From contig CP019454.1 in assembly GCA_002951815.1 (NCBI GenBank), positions 1,860,001 to 1,924,000 on the forward strand: a DNA stretch of 64,000 nt, read 5' to 3'. Below the pieces are notes generated by a model. That model did no database searches. It saw only the letters and a list, made by a program, of their open reading frames with translations, and was not told the DNA's origin. The translations under genes and the position numbers were made by a program. Below, piece by piece: positions 10,289 to 36,883 of this stretch (positions within the stretch are counted from its first letter, which is position 1; the number at the start of each line of letters is the position of its first letter). The stretch is from Sulfobacillus thermotolerans. Its GTDB lineage: Bacteria; Bacillota; Sulfobacillia; Sulfobacillales; Sulfobacillaceae.

Positions 10289-10325
10289 CGAAGGGAGCTG
10301 TCCCTGCTTGGGACAGCTCCCTTCG
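10289..10325. terminator. Long perfect hairpin after the larger propeller gene
   Basis: Perfect 16-bp inverted repeat CGAAGGGAGCTGTCCC / GGGACAGCTCCCTTCG with loop TGCTT, 14 bp past the stop codon of the minus-strand gene. The tail on the minus strand is only weakly T-rich (CTTCTTTTG), so termination efficiency is uncertain. Confidence 0.65.
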
Positions 10326-10338
10326 TAGTCACCAAGAT

Positions 10339-12243: not shown

Positions 12244-12350
12244 AAGAAGGCTCCTTTCTTTGCGAAATGCAATGTCAGTATGGAGCCATAGGATTCTTAT
12301 AATCTATTGGATTATTTCTTATTTTTAGACTAATAAGGGCAGTGGCAATA

Positions 12351-12379
12351 TTGAATTCACGAGGCAGATTTTGGATAAT
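12351..12379 (+). promoter_or_regulatory. Sigma-A-type promoter for the LuxR-type gene
   Basis: TTGAAT at 12351-12356, a 17-base spacer and GATAAT at 12374-12379, ending 52 bp before the GTG start. It lies in the 188-bp divergent region shared with the larger propeller gene. Confidence 0.55.
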
Positions 12380-12431
12380 GAGAGCGATGTTGGAGGCTCT
12401 AGGTGTAGAGAGAATTTAAGGAGGTGAAAAT

Positions 12432-13325
12432 GTGCCGATGACTTTATGGGCTCCAAGACAATTTGTTGCAGTGGCTCGTTATATTCTCCCCATCTTGTGT
12501 TTGGCGGAAATTCTAACGGGACTGCGCAACGTTCAGCCAGCCTTTGTTATTGGCGGCGCAGCAGCCTTGGATGTTACCTTATGTTGCACGTCTTATGCAT
12601 CTAAGCAATGGCAATGTACGGCGAGTTGGCGTGATTGCCTCTACGCCATAGGATTCTACGTGGTCTATTTAACAAATTCCCATGTGCCGGCGATGTTGCT
12701 TGCCGCTATCCCTGTCATGGAACTGAGTTATATGGGGACGAAAACTCTCGTGCATAAAGTGTTTGGTGTCAGTGTGGGATTGGTTGGTGTGCGCATCTGG
12801 ACGTTGCATCGCATGGTGGGGTGGTTCCCCCATCCAGCATGGCCTCTGTTTATTGTTTTAGTGGTGGCGATGGCTGCGGTTCTAGGACGGATGTTGCGGT
12901 ATGTTGCGCTGCCTGAAGACCTTATGCGTTCGCGGCAACGAGATGTTCGAGCCGCTGTTGCTACGTTAATTCACGAAATGGTGGTCCATGGGGTTGGGGA
13001 GCCATGGAGGAATAGCTCGTTGGAAGAGCTCTTAGCTCAAATGCCTGAACGCTTTGAACCGGGCCAATGCGCAGGACTTGCCCAAGCGCTGGCCAATGTG
13101 CTTCAAGGTGCGGGCACGGTAGTGCGGCCTTTGCTTTTGACGCCTAGGGAACACGAAGTCATACGGTTGATGGCAGACGGCCACCCCTACCGTGTGATCG
13201 CGCACATGCTAAAAATTAGCGAAGGGACTGCTCGGGCTCATGCGGCAAGTATTTTGCGCAAAGCTGGAGCCCATAGTCGTGAAGAAGCTCTCCAGTGGGC
13301 CCATCAACACCATCTCTTGCCTTAG
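12432..13325 (+). CDS. Membrane-anchored LuxR-type transcriptional regulator
   Basis: 297 residues. The first half (about 1-155) is a bundle of hydrophobic spans with no recognised sensor motif. The C-terminal 60 residues form a LuxR/GerE helix-turn-helix (LTPREHEVIRLMADGHPYRV, then ISEGTARAHAASILRKAG). There is no response-regulator receiver domain. The GTG start has a full AAGGAGGTG site five bases upstream. It is divergent from the larger propeller gene and upstream of the sulfocyanin gene, so control of the propeller and copper proteins is a reasonable inference. A DNA-binding domain tethered to the membrane suggests direct one-component sensing. Confidence 0.75.
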   Translation: MPMTLWAPRQFVAVARYILPILCLAEILTGLRNVQPAFVIGGAAALDVTLCCTSYASKQWQCTASWRDCLYAIGFYVVYLTNSHVPAMLLAAIPVMELSYMGTKTLVHKVFGVSVGLVGVRIWTLHRMVGWFPHPAWPLFIVLVVAMAAVLGRMLRYVALPEDLMRSRQRDVRAAVATLIHEMVVHGVGEPWRNSSLEELLAQMPERFEPGQCAGLAQALANVLQGAGTVVRPLLLTPREHEVIRLMADGHPYRVIAHMLKISEGTARAHAASILRKAGAHSREEALQWAHQHHLLP

Positions 13326-22053: not shown

Positions 22054-22600
22054 TTTAATAGTATGAGGCAGCATTGCTTGCGTATAAGCGCATGGTGGAT
22101 TATAAGTTCAATTCTAATTTTGTGTGTTCTGTAAACGCCACTTGGTTTCTGCTGCAAGTGTCTGCGTGCGTTGTGGGTGATCCGCGTTGCGAGTGTTATG
22201 GAACTTTTCGCATCAACCTCAGTGCCCCCCAAGGCATTTAAAGCACAACATTCTGCAGTCGCTGAGTATCCAGAAAGAATACGATTTGCGAGCGGCTTCT
22301 TTTGACGTGCCTGACATAAGATTTCCGAAATATATGAGTGCGTTGCACAGGAATTTGGTTGATTAGTTGTCCGTGTAAACGTGTATTGATGGGTCTTTCG
22401 TCTTACAGGATTCATTCACTAGGCCACGCTAACCGTTACTGCCGATCAGTTTTGAGTGAAAGAAATACATTACACAATTAAATAGCGTTTTGTAATAAAT
22501 AACATACGAAATAAAAATTTTTGTCATATCCTATATCGGTAATGGTAGATAAAAATGATAGGTTAACCATGAAGTTAACATGAAAAAGGAGAGAGCGGCA
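22054..22600 (+). promoter_or_regulatory. Upstream region of the NCS1 permease gene
   Basis: About 550 bp without a supported gene. Near the 3' end are an ATTACA/TGTAAT dyad around 22470-22493, a TTGTCA hexamer at 22521, and two copies of GTTAAC followed by CATGAA or ATGAA just before the start codon (about 22562-22584). These may be promoter and operator elements; the assignment is tentative. Confidence 0.3.
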
Positions 22601-24049
22601 ATGGCCAACGATTTGATGGTAAAAGACCCTGAATTGTACAATGTCGACCTTGCTCCCATTGCGAAAGAAAAGAGGCGCTGGACATGGGTGAATTACAGCA
22701 CCATTTGGATGGGAATGGTCCACAATATTGTCGCCTACGAAACTGCCGCGGCTCTTCTAAGCCAAGGTTTTAGTGTGGCGCAAGCCTTGCTTGCTGTCAT
22801 AATTGCCAATGCAATTCTGGTCTTGGCCATGTGGTTGAATGGGGTGGCGGGAGCTAAATATGGATTGCCTTTTCCAGTATTGATTCGTTCCGCTTTTGGC
22901 TACAAAGGAGCACAGATCCCCGTGTTATTGCGTGCCTTTGTCGCGATATTTTGGTTTGCCGTGCAGAGCTACGCGGGTAGCTTAGCCATCAATGCCTTGT
23001 TTGGTTTATTGATTCCGGGTTGGAACAGTCTCTCACAATATGCTTTCTTGGGCTTGCAGGCAAATGTCGCGATTGCGTTTGGATTGTTCTGGATTCTGCA
23101 TGCGTTGGTCATATCCCATGGTATGGAGAGAATTCGACATTTCGAATTATGGGCGGGCCCCATGGTGATTATTATGGGATTGATTGCAGTGGTATGGGCG
23201 GTTAACGCTGCTCATGGATTAGGGCCCCTGTTTACCGAGCCAAGTCACCTATCACCGGCCGCATTTGACGCGGCGTTTCCCTTGGCGGTTACCGGACTGA
23301 TTGGAGTATGGGCAACATTAGTCCTGAACATTCCCGATTTCACAAGATTTGCTAAAAGCCAGCGCGATCAGGTAGTAGGGCAGGCTATTGGATTGCCGAT
23401 TACCGCCATCCTCTTTGCCCTTATTAGCATTATCACGACGTCTGGGGCTTTAGCAGCTTTTGGAAGCGCCATTTCAAATCCCGTCGATTTATTGCAGCGC
23501 TTCCATAATCCTCTCATCTTGGTATTTGGTGCTTTGACTCTTATCGTCGCTACGCTATCCGTGAATGTTGGTGCCAATGTCGTATCGCCTGCTTACGATT
23601 TAGTCAATTTGTTCCCGAGAAAACTGCATTTTGTGAGCGCGGGGATCTTAGCTATTGCCTTAGGAGTCTTGTTTGTCCCGTGGATGTGGTTTAACAATGC
23701 CACCACGATTTACGATGTGTTAGGTGCCATTGGTGGGGCTTTAGGGCCTGTTGCGGGGTTGATGTTGGCGGACTTCTATGTCGTACGCAACCAACATTAT
23801 GATGTCGAGCAATTCTTCGAACGGTCGGGAGATTTTCGTTATCAAAACGGCTGGAATCTCAGGGGTCTAATGGCCTTTGGGGTGGGGCTCTTGGGAGCTT
23901 TTATCGGACTTTTTATTCCAAGCCTGCACGTTTTGTATACGTATTCGTGGTTTGTCGGAATCGTTGCTAGTTTTGTAAGTTATGCGTTGCTGATGAGACC
24001 CTATGTGGTTGCTACGGTTATTCCAGAGCCCCAAGAAGCAGAGCTTTAA
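22601..24049 (+). CDS. NCS1-family allantoin/nucleobase/hydantoin permease
   Basis: 482-residue membrane carrier of the nucleobase:cation symporter-1 family with about 12 spans. The N-terminal region KRRWTWVNYSTIWMGMVHN matches the helix-1 motif of PucI, FurD and Mhp1-type carriers, and GAKYGLPFPVLIRSAFGYKG is the conserved loop after helix 2. The GLNIPDFTRFAKS-like segment (VLNIPDFTRFAKSQRDQ) is also typical. I chose ATG 22601, nine bases after AAGGAG, over the ATG at 22580 that overlaps that site. Likely imports allantoin or hydantoins for the flanking enzymes. Confidence 0.85.
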   Translation: MANDLMVKDPELYNVDLAPIAKEKRRWTWVNYSTIWMGMVHNIVAYETAAALLSQGFSVAQALLAVIIANAILVLAMWLNGVAGAKYGLPFPVLIRSAFGYKGAQIPVLLRAFVAIFWFAVQSYAGSLAINALFGLLIPGWNSLSQYAFLGLQANVAIAFGLFWILHALVISHGMERIRHFELWAGPMVIIMGLIAVVWAVNAAHGLGPLFTEPSHLSPAAFDAAFPLAVTGLIGVWATLVLNIPDFTRFAKSQRDQVVGQAIGLPITAILFALISIITTSGALAAFGSAISNPVDLLQRFHNPLILVFGALTLIVATLSVNVGANVVSPAYDLVNLFPRKLHFVSAGILAIALGVLFVPWMWFNNATTIYDVLGAIGGALGPVAGLMLADFYVVRNQHYDVEQFFERSGDFRYQNGWNLRGLMAFGVGLLGAFIGLFIPSLHVLYTYSWFVGIVASFVSYALLMRPYVVATVIPEPQEAEL

Positions 24050-24055
24050 TGCATC

Positions 24056-24105
24056 ACAAAGTGGCGATGCGCCTAACGCGTCCTATATACGCATCGCTAC
24101 TTTGT
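24056..24105 (+). terminator. Hairpin between permease and hydantoinase genes
   Basis: 16-bp stem ACAAAGTGGCGATGCG / CGCATCGCTACTTTGT with one mismatch and an 18-base loop, lying between the two genes. It could terminate or attenuate transcription into the hydantoinase gene. Confidence 0.6.
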
Positions 24106-24162
24106 TTCAGAGGGTTCGCGTGAGTATAACAACGTCAATATCAATAGTAGGAGGGGCTACTC

Positions 24163-25551
24163 GTGCGCACGATAATTCGAAACGGCTACATTGGTCTGAC
24201 GCCAGATACACTCATTCAGGCAGACTTGGGCATTGTCCAGGGAAGCGTTTACTCTATTGGCCGGGATGTGAATCGTCAAGATTATGATGTGGAAGTGGAT
24301 GCGAGTGGATGCTGGGTTCTCCCTGGCGGGATTGACCCGCATGTGCACCTCGATTGGGATTTTGGCGATACGGTGACGACTGATGATATGGGTTCAGGGA
24401 CAAAGGCCGCCGTGTTTGGTGGTACGACAACCGTCATGAATTTTATCCAGCCACAACCGGGGGAATCGTTGTCCGCGTTAGTGGAACGATGGAAAGAAAA
24501 AAGTGGGGCGTCGTGGGCCCACTACGGCTTTCACATCATCATTCCCGAAATGAATGACCAGTGGCTTAAAGAACTGGCATTATTGCCTTCCCTAGGAGTG
24601 CACACGATTAAGGTATTTACTGCTTATCCTGGCAAACTTATGCTCTCCGATGCGGATATTTATAAAGTTTTGCGAACGGCAGGTCACAGTGGTGTTATGA
24701 CCATGGTTCATGCGGAAAATGGTCCGGTAATCGATGTGATTGCCGAAGACGCCATTATGGCTGGTCATTATCAAGCGGGTTATCATGGGATAACGAGGCC
24801 GGCGGAACTGGAAGGGGAAGCGGTGTTTCGTGTGGGCCAACTCGCCAGACTAGCCAAAGCGGCAGCATATATTGTGCACATGAGTTCTCATGAGGCGGTC
24901 CAAGCTCTCGCGTTCGCGCGCCAATTAGGTGCGAACTTGGCAGCGGAGACGTGCCCGCAATATTTATTCTTGGATGACCAAGTCTATGAATCGGACAGTT
25001 TTTCTGTCGCGCGTTTTGTGTACACGCCCCCATCACGCTCCCTTAAAGACCAGGAAGTTTTATGGACGGCATTGAAAAGAGGAGACATTGGCATTGTCTC
25101 GAGCGATCATTGTCCTTTTGACATGGAGGGGGCAAAGCAACTCGGCATTCATGATTTTCGACAGATTCCTAATGGAGGGCCAGGAATTGAGACGCGTGTG
25201 CCATTATTGTTAAATGCGGTTCAGCGTAAAGAGATTGACTTGGGTTCCACGGTCGGTTGGATGTCGACGCATGCTGCTAAAACGTTTGGACTTTTTCCGT
25301 ATAAGGGTGCACTGTTGCCCGGTAGCGATGCTGACATTATTATTGTTGATCCTCAAAGGGTTCCACCGCCCATCCATGTGGAACAATTGCATCAGCGTGT
25401 CGATTATACACCATATGAAGGGTGGGCCGTTCGAGGTTTTCCGCGGGACGTGATGGTAGGTGGCCAATGGGCTATTCGGGACTATCAATCGACAGGCCTG
25501 CCCCCTAATGGGCAGTTTATTGGTTTTCAGCATGCGGCAGTGAGGGCGTAG
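24163..25551 (+). CDS. hydA: Dihydropyrimidinase / D-hydantoinase
   Basis: 462-residue cyclic amidohydrolase. Metal ligands: GIDPHVHLDWDFGD (two His), Lys in HTIKVFTAYPG (carbamylated lysine position), His in MVHAENG, His in YIVHMSSHEA, and Asp in VSSDHCPFD. The GTTTVMNF segment and the NGGPGIETRVPLL loop are characteristic of hydantoinases and dihydropyrimidinases. The GTG start follows GGAGGGGCTACTC. The next gene, a carbamoylase, starts three bases after its stop. Together they would convert a dihydropyrimidine or hydantoin to an N-carbamoyl acid and then to an amino acid. Confidence 0.88.
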   Translation: MRTIIRNGYIGLTPDTLIQADLGIVQGSVYSIGRDVNRQDYDVEVDASGCWVLPGGIDPHVHLDWDFGDTVTTDDMGSGTKAAVFGGTTTVMNFIQPQPGESLSALVERWKEKSGASWAHYGFHIIIPEMNDQWLKELALLPSLGVHTIKVFTAYPGKLMLSDADIYKVLRTAGHSGVMTMVHAENGPVIDVIAEDAIMAGHYQAGYHGITRPAELEGEAVFRVGQLARLAKAAAYIVHMSSHEAVQALAFARQLGANLAAETCPQYLFLDDQVYESDSFSVARFVYTPPSRSLKDQEVLWTALKRGDIGIVSSDHCPFDMEGAKQLGIHDFRQIPNGGPGIETRVPLLLNAVQRKEIDLGSTVGWMSTHAAKTFGLFPYKGALLPGSDADIIIVDPQRVPPPIHVEQLHQRVDYTPYEGWAVRGFPRDVMVGGQWAIRDYQSTGLPPNGQFIGFQHAAVRA

Positions 25552-25554
25552 CCC

Positions 25555-26748
25555 ATGAACCGACGAAGGTTTTGGGATTACTTTAACAGACTACAAGGCA
25601 TTGGGCGCCAGGACAATGGAGTATTTCGGGTAGCATGGACGGATGAGGATATGTTGGCGCGGCGAGAGTTGGCAGAGATCCTCACGTATGAGGGGTTTAC
25701 AGCGTTTCGCGACGGGGCGGGTAATGTTTGGGGCCTGTGGACACCTAAGCCAGGGCAAGAATATCTAGTGCTCGGTAGCCATCTAGATAGCGTGGCGGGC
25801 GGAGGTGATTTCGATGGAGTCTACGGGGTAGCCGCGGCACTAGAAACGCTCTTGTCCTTGCGTGAATGCCAATTTGGCGATTATGGCAATGTGGCCATCG
25901 TGGCATTCGCTGATGAAGAAGGGGTGCGGTTTAATTCCGGTTTATTAGGAAGCCGAGCTATCACAGGCGCTTTGACGCGCCAAGAATTTATGACAATGGC
26001 AGATGCAAGTGGGAACCACAGTTTAGAGGATGCGGCGGCTGCGTATGGGGTGACATGGGAATCCTTGTCTGCCATAAGACCGGTGCCGATCTGTGCGTAT
26101 CTAGAAATCCACGTGGAACAAGGTCCGATCCTTGAAGAGCGCCAAATTCCTTTAGGGATTGTGAACGTGATTGCGGGAAGGTCGCAAGGGTATGTGCGGT
26201 TTACGGGGCGTCAAAACCACGCAGGGACTACGCCCATGGACAAAAGACAAGATGCCTTGCTTGCGGCAGCGCAGGCTGTTGTGGGCTTGCATGAGGCCGT
26301 TATGGACCATGAATGTGTGGGGACGGTTGGCGATATTATCGCGGATCCTGGTAGTCCTAATGTTATTGCCGGTCATTCTGCAATTTCTTTTGATGTTCGC
26401 GCACCTAAAGACGATATACGGGAAGCGGTTTTGCGTCGGTGGCAAGCCTCATGGGCGGCAGGGGCTATCGTGCAAAGGGTTGATAAGGCGGCAGTAGCGT
26501 TAGACCTTATGATTCGCAATATCTTACGCGACGCTGCTGCTCGCCTTCAGATTCCAACAATGTTTCTCAATAGTTGGGCTGTACATGATGCTATGATCTT
26601 GGCTCAATCCGTGCCCTCAGGACTGCTGTTTATTCCAAGTGCTGCGGGCGTTAGTCATGCTCGCGATGAATGGTCTTCGCCCCAAGATTGCGAAATCGGG
26701 GTGATGGTGTTCGAAGAAGCAGCTCGGACAATATTGACAGGGACTTGA
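25555..26748 (+). CDS. hyuC: N-carbamoyl-L-amino-acid hydrolase / beta-ureidopropionase type
   Basis: 397-residue M20-family carbamoylase and a paralogue of the AllC-like enzyme 8 kb upstream. Dimetal residues are in LGSHLDSVAGGGDFDG (His, Asp), ADEEGVRF (Glu pair), IHVEQGPILEE (His) and SHARDEWS (His). The segment QNHAGTTPMDKRQDALLAA matches the dimer/substrate domain of the family. Its placement directly after the hydantoinase supports action on N-carbamoyl amino acids rather than allantoate. The start ATG has GAGG upstream. A terminator follows about 160 bp downstream. Confidence 0.85.
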   Translation: MNRRRFWDYFNRLQGIGRQDNGVFRVAWTDEDMLARRELAEILTYEGFTAFRDGAGNVWGLWTPKPGQEYLVLGSHLDSVAGGGDFDGVYGVAAALETLLSLRECQFGDYGNVAIVAFADEEGVRFNSGLLGSRAITGALTRQEFMTMADASGNHSLEDAAAAYGVTWESLSAIRPVPICAYLEIHVEQGPILEERQIPLGIVNVIAGRSQGYVRFTGRQNHAGTTPMDKRQDALLAAAQAVVGLHEAVMDHECVGTVGDIIADPGSPNVIAGHSAISFDVRAPKDDIREAVLRRWQASWAAGAIVQRVDKAAVALDLMIRNILRDAAARLQIPTMFLNSWAVHDAMILAQSVPSGLLFIPSAAGVSHARDEWSSPQDCEIGVMVFEEAARTILTGT

Positions 26749-28213: not shown

Positions 28214-28261
28214 AATAAGCACAAAGGGCAGGCTGTTCAGGGCCTGCCCTTTGTGTTTATT
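28214..28261. terminator. Long hairpin terminator of the hydroxylase transcript
   Basis: 20-bp stem AATAAGCACAAAGGGCAGGC / GCCTGCCCTTTGTGTTTATT with one G-T type mismatch and an eight-base loop. It starts at the stop codon of the small minus-strand gene. A/T arms provide a T-tract in either direction. Confidence 0.8.
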
Positions 28262-28493
28262 ATTCGTCTTTTGCAGTGGAAGCAAGGGATTGGGCTAACC
28301 AGTTATGGTATTCATGCAGCAAGTGTGTACTGAGAATCATAGCGGCGTCAAGAATCACGGGACTCAAGGTTTCCGGTGATTCTTGACCACTGGCTAGGCG
28401 GTCGGTCAGCATTTTTAAGGCGTTGTCATAAACCTTACCTAATCGGTCTGGATTCAATTGCGAGTAAAACACGGTGAATTCCGGCAGTGTCAT
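28260..28493 (-). CDS. Small uncharacterised protein downstream of the aromatic hydroxylase
   Basis: 77 residues, MTLPEFTVFYSQLNPDRLGK at the N-terminus, soluble, helical, no known motif. The open frame continues upstream in the hydroxylase region, but ATG 28493 has GAGGG six bases before it and begins 17 bp after the hydroxylase stop, so it is the credible start. Co-transcribed with the flavin hydroxylase. It could be a small accessory or structural subunit; I do not recognise the family. Confidence 0.55.
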   Translation of the reverse strand: MTLPEFTVFYSQLNPDRLGKVYDNALKMLTDRLASGQESPETLSPVILDAAMILSTHLLHEYHNWLAQSLASTAKDE

Positions 28494-28509
28494 TAGCAAC
28501 CCTCTTCTC

Positions 28510-29730
28510 TTAATATTTGGTGGTAGCGGATGGACCGGAGCGCGGTCCATATGGCCCTTCATCAAGCCAGCGCCCGAGTGCAGGCCACGCAGGAGACAAA
28601 GCAGCAGCGACATAACGTTTGGCTTGCATGCCGCTCGATGCGCCTTGGATGTGTTCGAGGGCGATGCCGGCTGCGTTCCGGTTGTAAATCGCGGCGTGGT
28701 GGCGTTGCTCGGCAAAATGAGCAATAGCCTCTTGCGCTGCGGAGGACGACTTGGCGTTCAGCGCTTGGTGAATGGCTTGCGCAGCGGTTACGGCATCGGG
28801 GACGCCGGAATTAAATCCGCGGGCACCGAAGGGCGCGAACAGGTGGGCGGCTTCGCCAACGAGCAGGACACGGTACAAAGAATCAGTGAAGGAATTCGCG
28901 ACAACTTGAAGGAATTGATAGGTCGATACCCACGTAATGCGGTCCGCATATTTCTTATCCATAACAAGTGGAAGCCAACGTCGTACCGCGTCGAGACCAG
29001 CAAAGTCCTCGACGACGTCACTGTCCTTTAATTGAAGATCGATGCGCCAACCGCCCGCAAAAGGCACGAACAAGACATTGCGTCCATCCATTTGCGGGTG
29101 GTTGTAATGGAACACGCGTTCTAGCGGTAGGGGATCATCGGGGTCTTCAGAAACATCGACGACAATAAAGGTATTGGCAGAGCGTGTGCCTTCCATATCG
29201 ATATGAGCAGCATGACGCACAGTGGAATGGGCTCCGTCAGCGCCGATGACATAGGACGTGGTATAAGTGTGGCCATTGCGGGTTTTCACCACAACGCCGG
29301 TGGGCTCGATCTGTAATGTCTCAACAGGACTGGACCACACAAATTCAACCCCTTGCTCCAAGCACGCTTGATATAAAAATTGCTCGATTTGTACTTGGGG
29401 CAAGCTGGTAAACGGGGGAAGAGTATCGGGGGAAGGGGATGGATACGTTTTGGTGTATACTTCTTGCCCTTCAAACCACGTGCGCTTAACCGGCCAAACC
29501 ACTCCATGTTGTGCCATGGTCTTCCCCAACGAGGGGGCGATGTCTTCGAGTAATTGCAGTGTGGCCTTATGCAGAAAAATGGCACGGCTACCGGGACGTA
29601 GGCGGTCTTGAGATTCCGCTTCTAAGACCATGACCGGAATATTTTCATGACGCAAAGCTAAGGCGGCCGTCATGCCTACAGGACCAGCGCCGACGACAAT
29701 GGCGGGAAATGCGATATCTTGTAAACTCAC
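28510..29730 (-). CDS. FAD-dependent aromatic hydroxylase (salicylate/hydroxybenzoate or aryl-CoA hydroxylase type)
   Basis: 406-residue class A flavoprotein monooxygenase using NAD(P)H and O2. The N-terminal dinucleotide-binding motif is VVGAGPVGMTAALAL; the DG motif is GADGAHSTVRHAA; the second FAD motif is VLLVGEAAHLFAPFGARGFN, where the usual GD is GE. The GTG start has AGGAGG seven bases upstream. Its neighbours are a hot-dog thioesterase, an FAH hydrolase, a CoA ligase and a gentisate-dioxygenase-like protein. This context suggests ring hydroxylation to gentisate or gentisyl-CoA; the direct substrate (salicylyl-CoA, 3-hydroxybenzoyl-CoA or the free acid) is inference. Confidence 0.78.
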   Translation of the reverse strand: MSLQDIAFPAIVVGAGPVGMTAALALRHENIPVMVLEAESQDRLRPGSRAIFLHKATLQLLEDIAPSLGKTMAQHGVVWPVKRTWFEGQEVYTKTYPSPSPDTLPPFTSLPQVQIEQFLYQACLEQGVEFVWSSPVETLQIEPTGVVVKTRNGHTYTTSYVIGADGAHSTVRHAAHIDMEGTRSANTFIVVDVSEDPDDPLPLERVFHYNHPQMDGRNVLFVPFAGGWRIDLQLKDSDVVEDFAGLDAVRRWLPLVMDKKYADRITWVSTYQFLQVVANSFTDSLYRVLLVGEAAHLFAPFGARGFNSGVPDAVTAAQAIHQALNAKSSSAAQEAIAHFAEQRHHAAIYNRNAAGIALEHIQGASSGMQAKRYVAAALSPAWPALGRWLDEGPYGPRSGPSATTKY

Positions 29731-29975
29731 CGGTTGACCTCCTAGGATGATGAATTGTGACGGACAAAATCAATGCTCTAGCATGCTGCATGGGCCCAAT
29801 CCATTATGCAGGGCACCATGTTGTTTCGCCATGGAGCGCAAGTTCGTGGTTATCATGACAATTTAGATTGTCTTCAAGAAAAAGTATAATATATAATATA
29901 GAAGATGTCGCGCCTTGCATATTAATCTGACGAATAAAGAATCCTGGATGTATTTCTGAGCAAGGAGAGGTAGCC
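29731..29975. promoter_or_regulatory. Divergent promoter region with AT-rich dyad
   Basis: Shared control region of the hydroxylase (minus) and thioesterase (plus) genes. An AT-only stretch, TATAATATATAATATA, lies at about 29885-29900. Similar palindromic AT blocks occur at 33820-33840 and 34036-34051 beside the other genes of the same pathway, so it may be an operator for a common regulator. Confidence 0.45.
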
Positions 29976-30446
29976 ATGATAGAAGACCGTATGGAGCAGG
30001 ACGATGAACCAACACCAGGGCAGGATATCTGGCGCACTACGGTAGCATGGGGGGATACCGACGCGGCGGGTTTCGTATTTTATCCGAATTATTTTGCCTG
30101 GTTTGATGAAGCAACTCATCACTTTATCGGATCTTTAGCACAGAGTAGCCCCCAGTGGTTTACGGTGGAGCGTATTGGTTTTCCTTTGCTCGAGGCCTCT
30201 ATTCAATTTTTTGCTCCGTTGCATTTTGGCGATCCTATTGAAGTGTCGACGACGGTGGAGCACGTCGGTAATAAGTCTATGACATTGTTACACGATATTG
30301 TCTGTCGTGGTCAACGTATTGCGCATGGCCGTGAAAAACGGGCGTGGGTAACATTTAAAGATGTAGAAACTCCCGTGGCGATTCCTATTCCGGAGACAGT
30401 TCGCCCCGAATTGTTGCGCCGATTAGTATCTCAGCAGTCATCGTAG
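29976..30446 (+). CDS. Acyl-CoA thioesterase of the 4-hydroxybenzoyl-CoA thioesterase family
   Basis: 156-residue hot-dog-fold thioesterase. The catalytic signature WGDTDAAGFVFYPNYFAWFD is complete, with the Asp of DTDAAG as the usual catalytic residue; FPLLEASIQFFAPLHFGDPI is the second conserved strand region. The start has AAGGAGAGG upstream. It is 15 bp before the FAH hydrolase gene. In this cluster it would release free gentisate (or another hydroxybenzoate) from its CoA ester after ring hydroxylation. Confidence 0.82.
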   Translation: MIEDRMEQDDEPTPGQDIWRTTVAWGDTDAAGFVFYPNYFAWFDEATHHFIGSLAQSSPQWFTVERIGFPLLEASIQFFAPLHFGDPIEVSTTVEHVGNKSMTLLHDIVCRGQRIAHGREKRAWVTFKDVETPVAIPIPETVRPELLRRLVSQQSS

Positions 30447-30461
30447 TCAGGAGGAAACCGA

Positions 30462-31385
30462 ATGAAGTTAGCCGTATTTGATGAAGCGCGAGTTGGCCTT
30501 ATTGTCGATCACAGCGTGGTTGATATTACCGATTGGGTTCCGGATTGGTCACCTCGTTGGCCGTATGCTTGGATGCTCCCCTTTATTGCTCAGTTTGACG
30601 CGAAACGTGCGCAGTGGGAAGATTTAGCAGCCAATGGCCCACGGCAGCCGCTCGACAAGGTGCATTTACGCGCGCCTGTGCCCATGCCCTCGAAAATTAT
30701 TGCTGCCCCCGTAAACTACGTATTGCATCAGCAAGAGATGGGGGGGGCCAAAGGCGTATACGCCGGCACACAAGTCAAAACCATTGAAGATTACGGCTTA
30801 TTTCTGAAGCCTTCCTCATCTATTGCAGGGCCGGATGAGACCATCACGCTTCCCTTTGCCGAACGGCGAACGGATCACGAGGCGGAAGTCGGTGTCATCA
30901 TCGGTCGTCAAGTGCGAAACATTACAGAAGACGAGGCAGAACAAGCGATTTTTGGATTTACGGGATTGCTCGATCTGTCCGTGCGCGGGCCTGAAGATCG
31001 CCCGTATCGTAAAGGGTTTGACGGGTTTTGTCCGATTGGGCCGTGGATTGTTACCAAAGATGAAATGCCGGATATCAACCACATGACCTTTCGATTATGG
31101 GTTAATGGGGCGTTGCGGCAAGAAGGCTGCACCCAAGACATGATTTATTCCATCCGGCGATTAATCTCGTTGGCCTCGTATCAAACGACCTTATTCCCTG
31201 GCGACATTATTGCCTCGGGAACGCCGCAAGGCGTGGGGGAAGTCAAGCCTGGCGACGAGATGCATTTGCAAGTGGATGGGATTGGGGATTTAATCGTGCG
31301 GGTGTCAAAGATGACAGCCACTCCACCAAAAAATATGGGGGACTGGTTCAACAAATTTACCGTGGCCCGCACTGTGACCGCATAA
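30462..31385 (+). CDS. Fumarylacetoacetate hydrolase-family protein (likely fumaryl/maleylpyruvate hydrolase)
   Basis: 307 residues. The C-terminal FAH fold (about 75-290) contains the metal-ligand region RRTDHEAEVGVIIGRQ, and FGFTGLLDLSVRG, and ends with SGTPQGVGEVKPGDEM, which are all conserved in this family. The N-terminal 70 residues are the small extra domain often present. A strong ribosome site (TCAGGAGG) precedes the start. With a gentisate-dioxygenase-like enzyme nearby, hydrolysis of maleylpyruvate or fumarylpyruvate to pyruvate plus a C4 acid is the likely job. No maleylpyruvate isomerase was seen in the window. Confidence 0.82.
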   Translation: MKLAVFDEARVGLIVDHSVVDITDWVPDWSPRWPYAWMLPFIAQFDAKRAQWEDLAANGPRQPLDKVHLRAPVPMPSKIIAAPVNYVLHQQEMGGAKGVYAGTQVKTIEDYGLFLKPSSSIAGPDETITLPFAERRTDHEAEVGVIIGRQVRNITEDEAEQAIFGFTGLLDLSVRGPEDRPYRKGFDGFCPIGPWIVTKDEMPDINHMTFRLWVNGALRQEGCTQDMIYSIRRLISLASYQTTLFPGDIIASGTPQGVGEVKPGDEMHLQVDGIGDLIVRVSKMTATPPKNMGDWFNKFTVARTVTA

Positions 31386-31403
31386 ATTGTTTTTGCTAAT
31401 AAC

Positions 31404-31435
31404 AAGCCGAGTGAGAATATATTCTCACTCGGCTT
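31404..31435 (+). terminator. Perfect hairpin terminator, probable group II intron target
   Basis: Perfect 15-bp stem AAGCCGAGTGAGAAT / ATTCTCACTCGGCTT with a two-base loop, ending the thioesterase-FAH transcript. The group II intron sequence starts five bases later, as seen for introns that insert behind terminators. Confidence 0.8.
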
Positions 31436-31832
31436 ATCGGTGCGCCCGGCATGGGTGTGTGCTTTAGGGTGAAAGTCCCAAAGGGGGGATGACCGTTCCA
31501 ACCATAGCTTAAGGGTGCTCGTCACGAGGCGAGATCTGAAGGAAGCCGGTCGCAAACCTCCGGCCGGACGAACAGGAAGGGTATCCGAGGCGGGGCGCGT
31601 GGGGTGTATTCGCTGAACAGAACGAAGCCCAATACGGTCAAGCGCGCGTCACGTAAATGCACCTGGTAGATGGAGGGACCGTACACGTTCTTAGCCGAGG
31701 AGGTCTCTCGCGGTACCGCTAAAGCGGACAGGCGCACCGCAAGGTGCGCGTTACGGGAGAGAAGTCTAGGCCCGCGCGGGCTGCAGAACCGAACATGATC
31801 AGAAAGTGGTGCAGCTTATGAATTCGTGGGAC

Positions 31833-31952
31833 TCACGACGGCAGCCGACTACCTAAGGTCTTACTGGGAATGCCCAATTCGCGTGCCACTTTTTTGTGTT
31901 GTGTCACCGCCAGTTGAACCGATTGTTCTTTAAACGTTCGATCATATGGATT
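31833..31952 (-). pseudogene. Fragment of an IS3-type transposase OrfA
   Basis: About 39 codons reading PYDRTFKEQSVQLAVTQHKK then VARELGIPSKTLGS, which match the N-terminal helix-turn-helix of IS3-family OrfA proteins (RTFKEQAVQL, VARELGIP-KTL). It stops at 31833, and upstream the frame runs into unrelated sequence. It lies inside the group II intron shell. Confidence 0.6.
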
Positions 31953-32106
31953 GGCCGTCGGATACCTGCTCAACCTGACCGTCGGGGATGTGCGCGAAAC
32001 GCCCACAAAGTGGCGGGAGCGCATTCAGATTACCGAACAGAAGACCGGGAAGACGAAAGACTTTCCGATGAGTGCGTCCGCGAAGAAAGCGTTGGGACCA
32101 CCGTGA
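31948..32106 (+). pseudogene. Fragment of a tyrosine recombinase/phage integrase
   Basis: 52 codons without a start, reading GLAVGYLLNLTVGDVRE and then ITEQKTGKTKDFPMSASAKK. This matches the core of XerC/phage-type integrases around the first catalytic arginine (G-LR-SELLNL-VGDV ... I-E-KTGK-R--P). The arginine position is Ala here. No other part of the recombinase is present. Confidence 0.55.
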
Positions 32107-32194
32107 TCCACACAAAACCAGATACTGTGTTTAAGTATTTTAGAAAATCCTGACAGAGAGGGAACCCTATGTCTCACAACCACTCAGCGCTGAA

Positions 32195-32228
32195 GAGCTC
32201 AGTGAGGGAAACCCGCACGCTGGGTTCC
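32195..32228 (+). ncRNA. Group II intron domain V
   Basis: 34-base hairpin from GAGCTCAG to CTGGGTTC with the distal GGGAAACCC-like stem-loop, followed by GTGGGGGTTGGGCTACTCC and a GTAGCCC partner (domain VI-like) and CTACCC. This is the catalytic core segment of the decayed intron. Confidence 0.65.
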
Positions 32229-32341
32229 GTGGGGGTTGGGCTACTCCAAGTGAGTAGCCCTTCTACCCGGCGGCGCGGGTTAGTCACCCGCCGCTACTCG
32301 AATTTTGACCTCAATCAAGGTAGGGTTTACGGACAGAAAAG

Positions 32342-33772
32342 TTACGGGGAAATTTCCTCTAGCTGGCGCCCGCGGGTTTTGACCCCGAATTGGGCAATGA
32401 TGGCGCCTACGGCTAAAAATGCTCCCGTCATCAAAAATGCGGACATCACACTCATGTGTAAGGCTAGTGGTGCAATCACCATCAAGCCAACACCGCCGCC
32501 TAAATGGCCAATGCCATCCACCAAAGCAAATCCCGTGGTGCGCGCGCGAGTGGGGTAATTTTCTGTCGACCAACTATAAGTCATGGGGACCCAGAGGTTA
32601 AAGCCAAAAAAGATCATCGAGGAACCCAGCACAGACAACACAAAATCTGATCCCGCTTCGGCAACGAAAATGCCGCCTAATATGCAAATGACGGCAGAAA
32701 TCGGCAGCCAGTATTTTCGCTCAAGCCGCTCTGCTGTGTAAAATGCGACAATCGTGGCTAAAATAAATCCGAAGGTTCCAAATGCGGCGATCAGCCCTGC
32801 TTCTGGTGGCGCGAAATGCAAGCTGACCAAAATACTGGTCATCCCCGCTGCATACGTATACACCGTCACGTAACTGATAAACCACATGGCCATGAGTAAA
32901 ATTGTCCGTTTAAGATAGAGCGGATTGGAGAAAATTGCGGAGTAGGGAATGGCAGGTTCTCCAATTGCTGGTGGCTCGACTTGTTCTGTGATAGGGGGCA
33001 AGGGTCCGCGTAAAGACGCCATGTCTTCCATGAGGGACACAACCATGCTGGCCTCATGAATTCGATTTTGGGTAATGAGCCAACGGGGCGATTCGGGAAG
33101 GCGGATACGAACAAAAATGCCCGTGACAGCAAGCAGTCCGCCAATCAAATACATGGTGCGCCAGCCATTGGTGTAATGGGCGCTAGCCATAGCAAACGGC
33201 AAGCCCAGAGGGAATGGAGTGGCAGGCGTTGTCAGCAACAAGCCTAGCCAAATGCCTAAAAATGCTCCTAACGAGGACATTATAAAAATCAAGGAGGTAT
33301 ACTTGGCCCGACCCTGTCGTGGGGCGATTTCGTTGATATACGTATTGACAATGGCCAAGTCTGCGCCGACTCCCACGCCAGTCAGAATGCGAGAGAAGAT
33401 GAATTGGTTATAGGTGGGAGAAAAAGCTGTCCATAAGGAGCCGATTCCTGTAATCATCATGGTGACAAGCAGCATATCGCGGCGCCCGATGCGGTCAGAC
33501 AAAGGGCTTAAAATTAAGGTGCCGATGACATAGCCGACAAGGTTTAAAAGAACGGGCAAACCAAGCCATGTGGACGAACTCTCCGGCGTACAACCATGGA
33601 CGAGTTGGGTGCAGGTTTGAATAAACGACACATTAATATCAAACATGTCGTAGAACGTGAACAAAAAACCCACGCCGATGACGCCAATAAATAAATAGGG
33701 CATAGACCAAACGGATAACCGTTCGAGTCGGGAGAGCACGCTGCTCGGAGAAATCGCTGTTTCAGGCTTCAT
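32342..33772 (-). CDS. MFS transporter of the sugar/aromatic-acid porter type
   Basis: 476-residue 12-span carrier. The first-half motif is ILSPLSDRIGRRDMLL, a long central loop (about residues 220-260) separates the halves, and RIRLPESPRWLI is the post-helix-6 PESPR motif of the sugar-porter and aromatic-acid:H+ symporter groups. An acidic residue lies in helix 1 (YDMFDINV), as in aromatic-acid carriers. AGAGGTG precedes the ATG. Position between the FAH hydrolase and CoA ligase genes suggests uptake of the aromatic substrate. Confidence 0.8.
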   Translation of the reverse strand: MKPETAISPSSVLSRLERLSVWSMPYLFIGVIGVGFLFTFYDMFDINVSFIQTCTQLVHGCTPESSSTWLGLPVLLNLVGYVIGTLILSPLSDRIGRRDMLLVTMMITGIGSLWTAFSPTYNQFIFSRILTGVGVGADLAIVNTYINEIAPRQGRAKYTSLIFIMSSLGAFLGIWLGLLLTTPATPFPLGLPFAMASAHYTNGWRTMYLIGGLLAVTGIFVRIRLPESPRWLITQNRIHEASMVVSLMEDMASLRGPLPPITEQVEPPAIGEPAIPYSAIFSNPLYLKRTILLMAMWFISYVTVYTYAAGMTSILVSLHFAPPEAGLIAAFGTFGFILATIVAFYTAERLERKYWLPISAVICILGGIFVAEAGSDFVLSVLGSSMIFFGFNLWVPMTYSWSTENYPTRARTTGFALVDGIGHLGGGVGLMVIAPLALHMSVMSAFLMTGAFLAVGAIIAQFGVKTRGRQLEEISP

Positions 33773-34208
33773 AAATTCACCTCTGTTTGTCAGAAAATAG
33801 AGATAAGGAGGATATGCGCATATATAATATATTATATTAAAGAGGGCTTCAATAAAAATGATGCCAATAGCAAGGTTTTATTTGTGAGTAGCCTTGTGTG
33901 AGGGGTCAATGAGGGGGAGGCCTTAATATTGCGAGAATAATAGCACGATAGTAAGAACTTGGCCTAGGAGGCTTTGGAATATTTACGAGGTTTGGAGTCT
34001 TGCGGCAGGGGCTTTGGTTGGCTAGAATGAATAATACATTATATATAATGTTTTCCGCTAAATTTTAATTACCGCAATCGCTCACGCGCAACGTGCAGCG
34101 GATCTCAAAGAAGGGAGGATGCCTGGCTATGTAGTTCGTCTTGAGCATGTAGACGGCTACAACCCTGGGGCAACACGATTTGTAGGATGGCCCCAAGGAC
34201 TCAGCTAG
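33773..34208. promoter_or_regulatory. Divergent regulatory region with two AT-rich palindromes
   Basis: 436 bp between the MFS and CoA ligase genes. It contains TATAATATATTATA (about 33823-33836, perfect palindrome) near the MFS start and ACATTATATATAATGT (34036-34051, perfect 16-bp palindrome) nearer the ligase gene. Both resemble the AT block at 29885. A small open frame (34119-34208) precedes the ligase start. Confidence 0.5.
34119..34208 (+). CDS. Possible 29-residue leader peptide or cupin-gene remnant
   Basis: ATG directly after AAGGGAGG, 29 codons, with its stop TAG abutting the GTG start of the CoA ligase. The peptide begins MPGYVVRLEHVDGYNPGATR, which resembles the opening of small cupin proteins found in aromatic-degradation clusters. 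It may be a remnant or a translationally coupled leader; the zero spacing between GGAGG and ATG is unusual. Confidence 0.35.
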   Translation: MPGYVVRLEHVDGYNPGATRFVGWPQGLS

Positions 34209-35870
34209 GTGACGCCAGTGCTAACGGAAAAAGACTATTTATTTAACATTCCAGTGTCATTGCAATCCTACCTTCAGGGCTACACACTCCCTGACGTCTT
34301 TGACAAAACCGTGGCGCGTTATGGCCACCGTATTGCGGCATACGATGGGGAAAGGTCATATACCTGGCAACAATGGCAGGAAGACGCTCGCGCTTTTGCA
34401 ACAGCTCTGGCCAACATGGGGATTGGACGTGGGGATGTTGTTGGCGTTCATTTGCCCAATTCGTGGGAATTTTTAGTGGCTCATGTGGGTATTGCCATGC
34501 GCGGCGCGGTTATGCTGCCATTGCATATGGCGCACGGGGAGCGGGAAATATCGGCTCTATTATCCCGGACTCAAGCTCGTGTTGTCATCACGCCAGATCA
34601 ATTTCGGGGGCATCAGCAATCCACGTTGACACAACATCTGCTGGAAACGCTTCCCTTTCTGGAAACAATTATTGTGGTAGGAGCTCAGAGAGGGTCGTTC
34701 TCGCACCCCGCCATGAAGGATTACCATACGTTAATGGAGCACGGTCGCCAAGATTCGTGGCAACCCGTTCCGGTGCGTCCGGACGATCCGTTTATGCTTA
34801 TCGCGTCATCCGGCACAACATCGACGCGTCCTAAAATTTGTTTGCATAGCCATGACGGACTGCTGTCTAATGCTTGGGTTACGGCCACCGAAGGGCAAGC
34901 GCGGCCCGAGGACATCATTCTCAGTGGCAGCCCTTTTACCCATTTGTTTGGCATCTTATCGGTTCATATCAGTCTGCTTATGGGGGGAGGGCAAAGCCTT
35001 ATCGCGTACTGGAATGTTATGGACTTTCTAGAACGTGCGCAATCGTCTCAGGCCACTGTTATTTTTGCCGTTCCGACGCAGTTGCGCGACATGATGAATG
35101 CTTTGGATGCCCATCCTCATTCTTATCAACTATCGGTTCGTGAGATTCGTACAGGTGGGGCTGCCGTTCCCAAAGAGCTCATTGCTGCGGTACGTCAGCA
35201 TTTGAATGCAGGAGTAGTGATTCAGTGGGGTATGTCAGAAATTGGGTCGGGTATCTTTACGAGGCCCGGCGTACCTGATGCCATTGTTGGGGAGAGTGTG
35301 GGGCGTCCGGCTCCCGGTGCGGAGGTGCGGATTTTGATCGAGGGGGCTCCAGCGCCCGTTGGGGATATCGGCGATTTGTATTACCGGAGTCCCTATCTCT
35401 TTCATGGCTATTATGGCGATCCGGAATTGACGGCGGAGCAGGTGGATGCGGAGGCGTGGCTTCGTACGGGAGATTTAGCGAGTTGGAATGCCGATGGGAC
35501 GATTCAGTATCGGGGACGGGCGACGGAAACCTTGAATCGTGGGGGACTGAAATTTAGTGCATTGGAAGTCGAGTCCTTATTATCTGACCTGCCAGAAATT
35601 GCTCAACACGCGATTCTGCCGCGTCCCGATTTACGATTGGGGGAACGCGCTTGTCTTGCGGTGTCTTTCCGTGAGGGAGCCTCTTTGACGCTTCAAGACA
35701 TCTGTCACCATTTGGAGGCCAAAGGGCTCGCGAAATATAAATGGCCAGAAGAATTAGTCGTGCTAGAGAAATTGCCAACTACGCCGACAGGAAAAATTGC
35801 TCGCGCATTGCTCAAAGAAGCGGTTCTAGAAGCGGAACGTAACAAGACATCGGAAGGAGCATCGAAATGA
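34209..35870 (+). CDS. AMP-forming acyl/aryl-CoA ligase
   Basis: 553-residue ANL-superfamily enzyme that activates a carboxylic acid with ATP and CoA. The phosphate-binding motif is IASSGTTSTRPKICLHSHDG, the adenylation motif WGMSEIGSG, the hinge region WLRTGDLASW followed by GRATETLNRGG, and the C-terminal lysine motif PTTPTGKIARALLK. The GTG start follows AAGGA at nine bases. Its stop overlaps the bicupin start (ATGA). With a hydroxylase, thioesterase and gentisate dioxygenase nearby, an aryl substrate such as salicylate or 3-hydroxybenzoate is likely. Confidence 0.83.
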   Translation: MTPVLTEKDYLFNIPVSLQSYLQGYTLPDVFDKTVARYGHRIAAYDGERSYTWQQWQEDARAFATALANMGIGRGDVVGVHLPNSWEFLVAHVGIAMRGAVMLPLHMAHGEREISALLSRTQARVVITPDQFRGHQQSTLTQHLLETLPFLETIIVVGAQRGSFSHPAMKDYHTLMEHGRQDSWQPVPVRPDDPFMLIASSGTTSTRPKICLHSHDGLLSNAWVTATEGQARPEDIILSGSPFTHLFGILSVHISLLMGGGQSLIAYWNVMDFLERAQSSQATVIFAVPTQLRDMMNALDAHPHSYQLSVREIRTGGAAVPKELIAAVRQHLNAGVVIQWGMSEIGSGIFTRPGVPDAIVGESVGRPAPGAEVRILIEGAPAPVGDIGDLYYRSPYLFHGYYGDPELTAEQVDAEAWLRTGDLASWNADGTIQYRGRATETLNRGGLKFSALEVESLLSDLPEIAQHAILPRPDLRLGERACLAVSFREGASLTLQDICHHLEAKGLAKYKWPEELVVLEKLPTTPTGKIARALLKEAVLEAERNKTSEGASK

Positions 35871-36883
35871 TACAAGATCCGTATGAAGCCATTAAAGAAT
35901 TAGGGGCGGCTCCCTTATGGAAATACTATGGCAATCTGTTCCCCGCTGAGCCTAAAAGTGAAGCCGTGCCTTATGTGTGGCGTTATCGAGACCTTCGCCC
36001 CTACATGTTGCATTTTTCCGAGGTGCTGTCCTTACATGAAGCGGAGCGGCGCGTCTTAATGTTAGTCAACCCTGGATTAACGGAGCCTCCTGCGACGGTG
36101 AATTCTTTATACGCGGGTATCCAGATTATTTTGCCGGGTGAGACGGCTCAAGCCCATCGTCACTCCGCCTCGGCGTTTCGCTTCATTATTGAAGGGGAAG
36201 GAGCTTATACCACGGTCAATGGGGAGCGAGTTGATATGCATCCGGGTGATTTGCTGTTAACGCCGGGCTGGCATTGGCACGATCATTCCCATGAAGGAAA
36301 TGGCCCCATGATGTGGCTCGATGGGCTAGATTATCCTCTTGTCAATAAGCTTGAAGCAGGCTTCTTTGAACTTTTGGGCGTAAGAATGCAAGAACAGACA
36401 GTGCCTGCCAATAGTTCGACGAAAAAGTTTATTCATGGGCGGTTGTTGCCACTTTGGGAAAGTCCAGCGGGCCCTCACTCACCTATTGGAAACTATCCCT
36501 GGTCAGAAACTGAAAAGGCTCTTGCTGGGATTTCTGATGAAGCCGAAGGGAGTGCAGTCGAGGGGATTGTTCTCGAATATACCAATCCCTGGACGGGTGG
36601 GCCGGTGATGCCTACGATGAGTTGCCGGGTGAGTCGATTGAAGCCTGGATTTCATGGATTGCCCTTTAAGCACACTGCGAGCACTATTTATCACGTCGTC
36701 AAGGGTCAAGGCGAAACCGTGGTTGATGGAGTCAAATTGGATTGGGCGGAACACGACACGTTTTGTGTTCCCGGTTGGGCACAGTATGCGCATGTCAATC
36801 GCTCGGCGTCTGAAGATGCGATCTTATTCTCGTATTCCGATGAACCCGTCATGAAAGCGTTAGGTTTATATCGCCACATATAG
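35867..36883 (+). CDS. Gentisate 1,2-dioxygenase-like bicupin
   Basis: 338 residues with two cupin barrels. The N-terminal metal cupin reads ETAQAHRHSASAFRFIIEG with the expected His pair and a downstream His in LTPGWHWHDHSHE; the C-terminal cupin (LPFKHTASTIYHVVKGQGE) has the matching fold. This layout and length fit Fe(II)-dependent gentisate or 1-hydroxy-2-naphthoate dioxygenases, which cleave the ring between the carboxyl- and hydroxyl-bearing carbons. It is coupled to the CoA ligase by a 4-bp overlap. It supplies the substrate of the FAH hydrolase. Confidence 0.82.
   Translation: MIQDPYEAIKELGAAPLWKYYGNLFPAEPKSEAVPYVWRYRDLRPYMLHFSEVLSLHEAERRVLMLVNPGLTEPPATVNSLYAGIQIILPGETAQAHRHSASAFRFIIEGEGAYTTVNGERVDMHPGDLLLTPGWHWHDHSHEGNGPMMWLDGLDYPLVNKLEAGFFELLGVRMQEQTVPANSSTKKFIHGRLLPLWESPAGPHSPIGNYPWSETEKALAGISDEAEGSAVEGIVLEYTNPWTGGPVMPTMSCRVSRLKPGFHGLPFKHTASTIYHVVKGQGETVVDGVKLDWAEHDTFCVPGWAQYAHVNRSASEDAILFSYSDEPVMKALGLYRHI

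Follow-up and report, generated by a model that had tools for sequence, protein, structure and literature searches.

A conserved gene cluster in Sulfobacillus thermotolerans points to a CoA-thioester route from a hydroxybenzoate to gentisate

The 64-kb window analyzed here (the whole stretch of DNA under study, genome positions 1,860,001-1,924,000 of Sulfobacillus thermotolerans Kr1) carries at 28.26-36.88 kb a cluster of genes for the putative breakdown of an aromatic acid. From left to right, these encode a 77-residue protein, a flavin hydroxylase, a thioesterase, a hydrolase, a carrier of the MFS family, an aryl-coenzyme A (CoA) ligase and a gentisate dioxygenase (Table 1), with the start of the dioxygenase gene overlapping the ligase stop by 4 nucleotides. 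An earlier interpretation based only on the DNA letters (the sequence-only reading) had named six of these genes and an acidophile-like Gram-positive host; family matches confirmed all six at their places, and the host is indeed such an organism. It had overlooked the 77-residue gene, the intron remnant (group II), the three palindromic sites and a GntR regulator that is present in relatives but absent from this copy, and the cluster start given as 28260 belongs to the small gene, not to the hydroxylase. Aromatic degradation is not mentioned in the genome paper of strain Kr1 (PMC6803676).

Table 1 Features of the S. thermotolerans cluster, in window coordinates.
Feature	Position	Strand	Evidence and proposed role
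Small gene, 77 residues	28260..28493	-	16 nucleotides downstream of hydroxylase gene; proposed hydroxylase accessory protein
Class A flavin monooxygenase, 406 residues	28510..29730	-	FAD_binding_3, E 1.7e-43; proposed hydroxybenzoyl-CoA hydroxylase yielding gentisyl-CoA
Palindromic operator-like site TATAATATATAATATA	29885..29900	.	Perfect match; divergent promoter region of hydroxylase and thioesterase genes
Hotdog thioesterase, 4HBT class-I type	29976..30446	+	4HBT_2, E 7.7e-17, also 4HBT; proposed gentisyl-CoA thioesterase
FAH-family hydrolase	30462..31385	+	FAA_hydrolase, E 5.7e-55; proposed maleylpyruvate hydrolase
Group II intron remnant	31440..32310 (approximate ends)	+	RF02001 and RF00029 matches; not part of the pathway
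MFS carrier	32342..33772	-	Sugar_tr/MFS_1; proposed aromatic acid/H+ symporter
Palindromic operator-like site TATAATATATTATATA	33821..33838	.	Perfect match; upstream of MFS gene
Palindromic operator-like site, ACATTATATATAATGT core	34030..34047	.	Two mismatches; upstream of ligase-dioxygenase operon
AMP-forming aryl-CoA ligase	34209..35870	+	AMP-binding, E 5.9e-67
Gentisate 1,2-dioxygenase, bicupin	35867..36883	+	TIGR02272, 350 bits, E 1.2e-104

A metagenome-assembled relative (genome G024; loci L021 and L037, which are one contig) has an identically arranged cluster whose genes match those of the window at 66-84% identity (43% in the case of the small gene); the one addition is a gene for a GntR regulator of the FCD type, located between those for carrier and ligase. 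Because the cluster recurs there almost gene for gene and with matching palindromic sites, it is one functional unit, and this conserved synteny rejects a chance neighborhood. Gene order is likewise shared by the L036 locus of S. benefaciens AMDSBA4, except that the thioesterase gene is missing. Seven other genomes of the genus were searched and contained neither a close dioxygenase (at least 75%) nor any hydroxylase, and the cluster is therefore patchily distributed. Hydroxylase relatives were drawn from 84,980 scanned species genomes, a plasmid search and 398 Bacilli genomes, ten of which have the hydroxylase. Among the 17 Bacillota loci counted (the window, L025, L036-L043 and L177-L183), a gentisate dioxygenase lies beside the hydroxylase in 16, a dedicated CoA ligase is present in 15 and a class-I thioesterase in 11, one of them weak (L038), while L183 consists of ligase, thioesterase and hydroxylase as a bare trio. 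All five haloarchaeal loci that bear a dioxygenase (L117, L122, L124, L126 and L127) include a thioesterase, a hydrolase and the subunits of an ADP-forming CoA ligase. MFS carriers 62-86% identical to the one in the window adjoin the same genes in relatives, and its best NCBIfam model was TIGR00895 (aromatic acid/H+ symport; 128 bits, below cut-off). Enoyl-CoA hydratase and thiolase genes accompany the cluster genes in L040, L177, L178, L180, L181 and L182, with a 3-hydroxyacyl-CoA dehydrogenase in addition in L178, and in these loci aroyl-CoA would therefore arise directly by thiolysis. L177 (11216-11806) and L178 (10784-11371), from two large Bacilli genomes, also encode, between thioesterase and gentisate dioxygenase, a protein of ~195 residues that matches no Pfam family.

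The sequence-only reading had combined ligase, hydroxylase, thioesterase and gentisate dioxygenase into a CoA-thioester route to gentisate, and this step logic gains support from the recurrence in relatives. The route is well supported because the recurring set of hydroxylase, thioesterase and dioxygenase is found in company with three types of CoA ligase: a dihydroxybenzoate (DHB)-type AMP-forming enzyme in Sulfobacillus, a PaaK-type enzyme (Melghirimyces L043, L179, L183) and a two-subunit ADP-forming enzyme in haloarchaea, the last not homologous to the other two. Three ligase families in one slot are expected if what is conserved is the requirement for CoA activation and not any one ligase. 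The best PDB match of the thioesterase was 5wh9, a "4-hydroxybenzoyl-CoA thioesterase", and its catalytic-type Asp motif (D-x-D-x-x-G; GDTDAAG here) is kept in 10 of 10 aligned homologues, which points to a 4HBT class-I enzyme with gentisyl-CoA as the proposed substrate. The gentisate cluster of Bacillus halodurans likewise contains a class-I 4HBT protein, the gentisyl-CoA thioesterase BH1999 (PMC516016), a likeness that covers the thioesterase alone.

The AlphaFold model of the hydroxylase (pLDDT 90) presented a class A monooxygenase fold, and fold comparison using Foldseek recovered this general fold only. Its nearest NCBIfam model was PRK08132 (216 bits, below cut-off), which is also the best, sub-threshold model for relatives from Alicyclobacillus, Melghirimyces, Halorussus and Streptomyces; the relatives are carried in records as "FAD-dependent monooxygenase". 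In the tree, the Bacillota hydroxylases group together (17 rows, SH-aLRT 99) and the actinobacterial ones are separate, while haloarchaeal hydroxylases are 47-53% identical to that of the window. The sequence-only reading had expected the hydroxylase next to SdgC, the salicylyl-CoA 5-hydroxylase of the Sdg pathway of Streptomyces sp. WA46, and by this analogy the ligase would form salicylyl-CoA, C5 would be hydroxylated and the thioesterase would free gentisate. The step logic is identical (activation, hydroxylation as CoA ester, gentisate dioxygenase), C5 hydroxylation para to the hydroxyl group is easy chemistry, and the ligase has DHB/salicylate-AMP ligases as its nearest PDB sequences. The hydroxylase, however, comes from another branch of class A monooxygenases. 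When compared to an SdgC-type protein (a bifunctional salicylyl-CoA 5-hydroxylase from a Cupriavidus plasmid, L121; PRK08255, NF006101, 1359 bits), it showed 22% identity over 219 residues (about half its length), and the SdgC-type protein sits apart from it on a very long tree branch of about ten changes per column. Matches to the SdgC model in the S. thermotolerans genome were restricted to the old-yellow-enzyme half, and no SdgC-type hydroxylase half was found there. Identity, tree, the different NCBIfam models and the genome search thus rule out a placement beside SdgC. Salicylate specificity of the ligase was not supported either: it has HLFG aligned where 6e8o, 5wm2, 1md9 and 7tyb have HNF or HNY, and so lacks the HN-motif Asn common to DHB/salicylate ligases, a residue that, from its role in DhbE, we take to lie near the ortho-hydroxyl of the substrate. 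A salicylyl-CoA route would need convergent use of an unrelated hydroxylase, the contexts of relatives indicate para-substituted acids instead, and we regard it as improbable.

Below gentisate, TIGR02272 is the best NCBIfam model for the dioxygenase (curated cut-off of 442 not reached), the protein matches the gentisate dioxygenases 3bu7 and 2d40 (E 3e-81 and 2e-78), and the metal His residues of its first cupin (HRH...WHDH) align with both. A search of the whole 3.32-Mb genome, in which controls were positive, detected no GST-type (TIGR01262), DinB_2-type (PF12867) or MDMPI-type (PF11716) maleylpyruvate isomerase; the absence that the sequence-only reading had noted thus holds genome-wide for these families. 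The best PDB match of the hydrolase was 6jvv (residues 1-281, near full-length, 216 bits), called maleylpyruvate hydrolase by its depositors; compared with this enzyme (6jvv/6jvw), the window protein has short insertions and 26 residues beyond the match. The genome-wide lack of these isomerase families and the match to 6jvv support direct hydrolysis of maleylpyruvate, also suggested earlier, as the predicted activity of this protein. The hydrolase of Melghirimyces L043 belongs to a different subtype, with 6jvv as its 13th-ranked match, and a DinB-family gene (12178-12693) lies between it and the dioxygenase; L179 and L180 likewise pair a DinB-like gene (10301-10780 and 10575-11096, respectively) with that subtype. 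These DinB-family genes are candidates for a thiol-dependent maleylpyruvate isomerase of Bacilli, for which bacillithiol would be the obvious cofactor.

We consider it probable that the cluster as a whole works as one catabolic unit, converting a hydroxybenzoate (4-hydroxybenzoate being the likeliest) via its CoA thioester to gentisate and onward. The carrier would import the acid, the ligase would convert it to the CoA thioester, and the flavin monooxygenase would hydroxylate the thioester to gentisyl-CoA. Gentisate would then be released by the hotdog thioesterase, opened to maleylpyruvate by the bicupin dioxygenase and, as maleylpyruvate, split directly into maleate and pyruvate by the FAH-family hydrolase. 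Gene content, conservation, protein families and the lack of the three isomerase families follow from the sequences, whereas all substrates, the sequence of the hydroxylation and hydrolysis steps, any NIH shift and the regulator are inferred. As flavin hydroxylases require an activated ring, the candidate substrates are 2-, 3- or 4-hydroxybenzoyl-CoA, each of which would yield gentisyl-CoA; with a 4-hydroxy substrate, hydroxylation would require ipso attack at C1, with the thioester group migrating (an NIH shift). The 4-isomer is favored because of three observations. The first is the HLFG of the ligase in place of HN(F/Y). The second comes from actinobacterial-type loci, where an aryl ligase accompanies the hydroxylase relative in 66 of 66 cases and pabAB and ADC-lyase-like genes (4-aminobenzoate synthesis) in 62. 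The third comes from Halorussus caseinilyticus (L123), in which a Rv2949c-like chorismate pyruvate-lyase gene (7384-7905) lies immediately upstream of that for the hydroxylase relative, a MenA-type prenyltransferase lies nearby and the region perhaps belongs to a quinone-related pathway; Rv2949c-like chorismate pyruvate-lyases make 4-hydroxybenzoate. These chorismate-lyase and pabAB contexts would be left unexplained if the substrate were 3-hydroxybenzoate, or its CoA ester derived from benzoate or phenylpropanoids, with hydroxylation at C6, and we find this unlikely. The B. halodurans thioesterase BH1999 is said (Zhuang, 2004) to accept 3-hydroxybenzoyl-CoA as well, which counts in favor of such a route, as does the fit of the beta-oxidation genes in relatives with 3-hydroxycinnamate as much as with 4-coumarate. 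A precedent exists in Haloferax D1227, in which 3-hydroxybenzoate and phenylpropionate are used through gentisate (PMC4005966).

A 4-hydroxybenzoyl-CoA route of the PhgABC type fits the comparative context better than the salicylyl-CoA/SdgC route. PhgABC of Brevibacillus laterosporus PHB-7a reportedly comprises a 4-hydroxybenzoyl-CoA ligase, a hydroxylase with a 1,2-shift and a gentisyl-CoA thioesterase. In the account of PMC7862547, which cites Zhao et al. 2018, these enzymes convert 4-hydroxybenzoate to gentisate via CoA thioesters with a 1,2-shift. The three functional classes leading to gentisate are common to both systems, each in a Bacillota-type Gram-positive, and are encoded together in the window; the bare trio of L183 matches the PhgABC composition. 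The likeness is one of step logic and context, not of orthology, and Sulfobacillus differs in its DHB-like ligase and in having ring-cleavage, hydrolase and carrier genes within one cluster. Haloarcula sp. D1 uses 4-hydroxybenzoate via gentisate with an NIH shift, according to the statements in PMC4005966 and PMC6592069 that cite Fairley et al. 2002. The haloarchaeal loci compared here, which are from other strains, have in common with the window a hydroxylase accompanied by thioesterase, dioxygenase and hydrolase, whereas their ligase is the ADP-forming two-subunit type.

Several observations weigh against this preferred pathway. The CoA-synthetase and thioesterase genes of Haloarcula D1 are said (Fairley, 2006) not to be induced by 4-hydroxybenzoate, and in actinobacteria the thioester acted on by the hydroxylases may be another one (amino substrate, carrier protein). 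In S. benefaciens, the thioesterase is absent from L036 and only remote matches were found in the genome. In genome G011, the hydroxylase and one dioxygenase are in L025 and ligase, thioesterase and hydrolase in a separate locus (L022), and L049 and the short contig L039 contain hydroxylase and dioxygenase with no ligase in view. Because L025, L039 and L049 have no ligase in view, some relatives may hydroxylate the free acid. Applied to the cluster itself, free-acid hydroxylation by a monooxygenase resembling 3-hydroxybenzoate 6-hydroxylase would leave ligase and thioesterase for uptake, detoxification or another substrate. The three loci without a nearby ligase or thioesterase, the missing thioesterase in L036 and the Foldseek neighbors of the hydroxylase, which are free-substrate hydroxylases with no CoA-ester hydroxylase among the matches listed, are all in line with it. 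However, the ligase recurs with the hydroxylase in most Bacillota loci and does so via different families, and L183 retains hydroxylase, thioesterase and ligase alone; free-acid hydroxylation in the window therefore seems quite improbable. The proposal of the sequence-only reading that CoA trapping could help at low pH found no support and was abandoned, since haloarchaea and Melghirimyces, which are not acidophiles, share this architecture.

An AT palindrome (TATAATATATTATA sites, at 29885, 33821 and 34030) is found with each of the three transcription units in the cluster. With up to three mismatches, the pattern had 15 matches at five places in the window compared to 0.48 expected, none of 100 shuffles produced as many, and the only two perfect matches in the genome both lie in the cluster. 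Genome-wide, the pattern was not over-represented (10 matches versus 15 for the reversed control), and the case for operators therefore rests on position and conservation. Palindromic sites were observed at the matching promoters in L021 and L036 (the hydroxylase/thioesterase intergenic region and upstream of the MFS gene), a ATACATTATATATAATGTT core lies upstream of the ligase in L021, as at the 34030 site, and further sites are near the related clusters in L022, L025, L038 and L042. The sites are probably read by an FCD-type GntR regulator acting from elsewhere in this genome. No such gene is in the window cluster; the closest homologue in the genome (56% identical, 3185562-3186230) may be the protein that reads them. 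Outside the cluster, the palindrome occurs at L164 4745 and 12592, L165 4189 and L166 5064 (genome C1 486744, 494591, 601188 and 2078063); two of these lie on either side of a region that has a GntR regulator of its own, together with one MFS gene and amidohydrolase genes, and one precedes an aminotransferase-permease pair.

The intron remnant lies between the convergent hydrolase and MFS genes, a gap that in the collinear relative L021 measures only ~75 bp. It was recognized by RF02001 (31518-31689, 117.8 bits) and RF00029 (32193-32271, 34.9 bits, slightly under the gathering score), covering parts of D1-D4 and domain 5, and contains no reverse transcriptase open reading frame; at 31940-32110, a fragment resembles a tyrosine-recombinase/integrase reading frame. 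Elsewhere in the window (22580-26748), nucleobase-type transporter, dihydropyrimidinase-like and N-carbamoyl-amidohydrolase-like genes likely form an operon for pyrimidine or hydantoin degradation.

The small gene is kept beside the hydroxylase in L025, L036-L039, L041, L042, L179 and L180 (Sulfobacillia and some Bacilli), and an alignment of its product shows invariant residues at P4, F6, F9-Y10, L13, T56-H57, Y62-H63 and W65-L66. Its AlphaFold model (mean pLDDT 81) consists of helices only; searches returned no Pfam or NCBIfam match, no PDB match better than E 2.3 and no fold match. We propose that it is an accessory protein of the hydroxylase. In actinobacteria (L066, L120, L048 and further loci in L045-L115), the hydroxylase relative belongs to a conserved operon of pabAB, aryl ligases and an ADC-lyase-like aminotransferase, whose predicted product is a hydroxylated 4-aminobenzoyl derivative. 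The Streptomyces goshikiensis copy of this operon (L120) adjoins genes for a fatty acyl-AMP ligase, desaturases and an acyl carrier protein. A tentative, and rather doubtful, extension is that the hydroxylase defines a wide family of ipso-hydroxylases of para-substituted benzoyl thioesters that migrate the thioester group by an NIH shift. Such a family would act in gentisate catabolism in Bacillota and haloarchaea and in biosynthesis in the actinobacterial 4-aminobenzoate operon (predicted product, a 5-aminosalicyl thioester), with a small helical partner in some Bacillota.

The logic of the pathway is already known, and what is new is its host. If the interpretation is right, Sulfobacillus, a metal-leaching acidophile usually seen as a mineral oxidizer, removes an aromatic acid via a CoA-thioester route. 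The wider hydroxylase family, poorly studied and common to other bacteria, salt-loving archaea and Streptomyces, is a more interesting lead than the cluster itself. The comparison gives a testable rule, by which an unnamed flavoprotein family of bacteria and archaea would be assigned the hydroxylation of aroyl-CoA, and it predicts an unusual shift of the carbon skeleton in a widespread Streptomyces operon.

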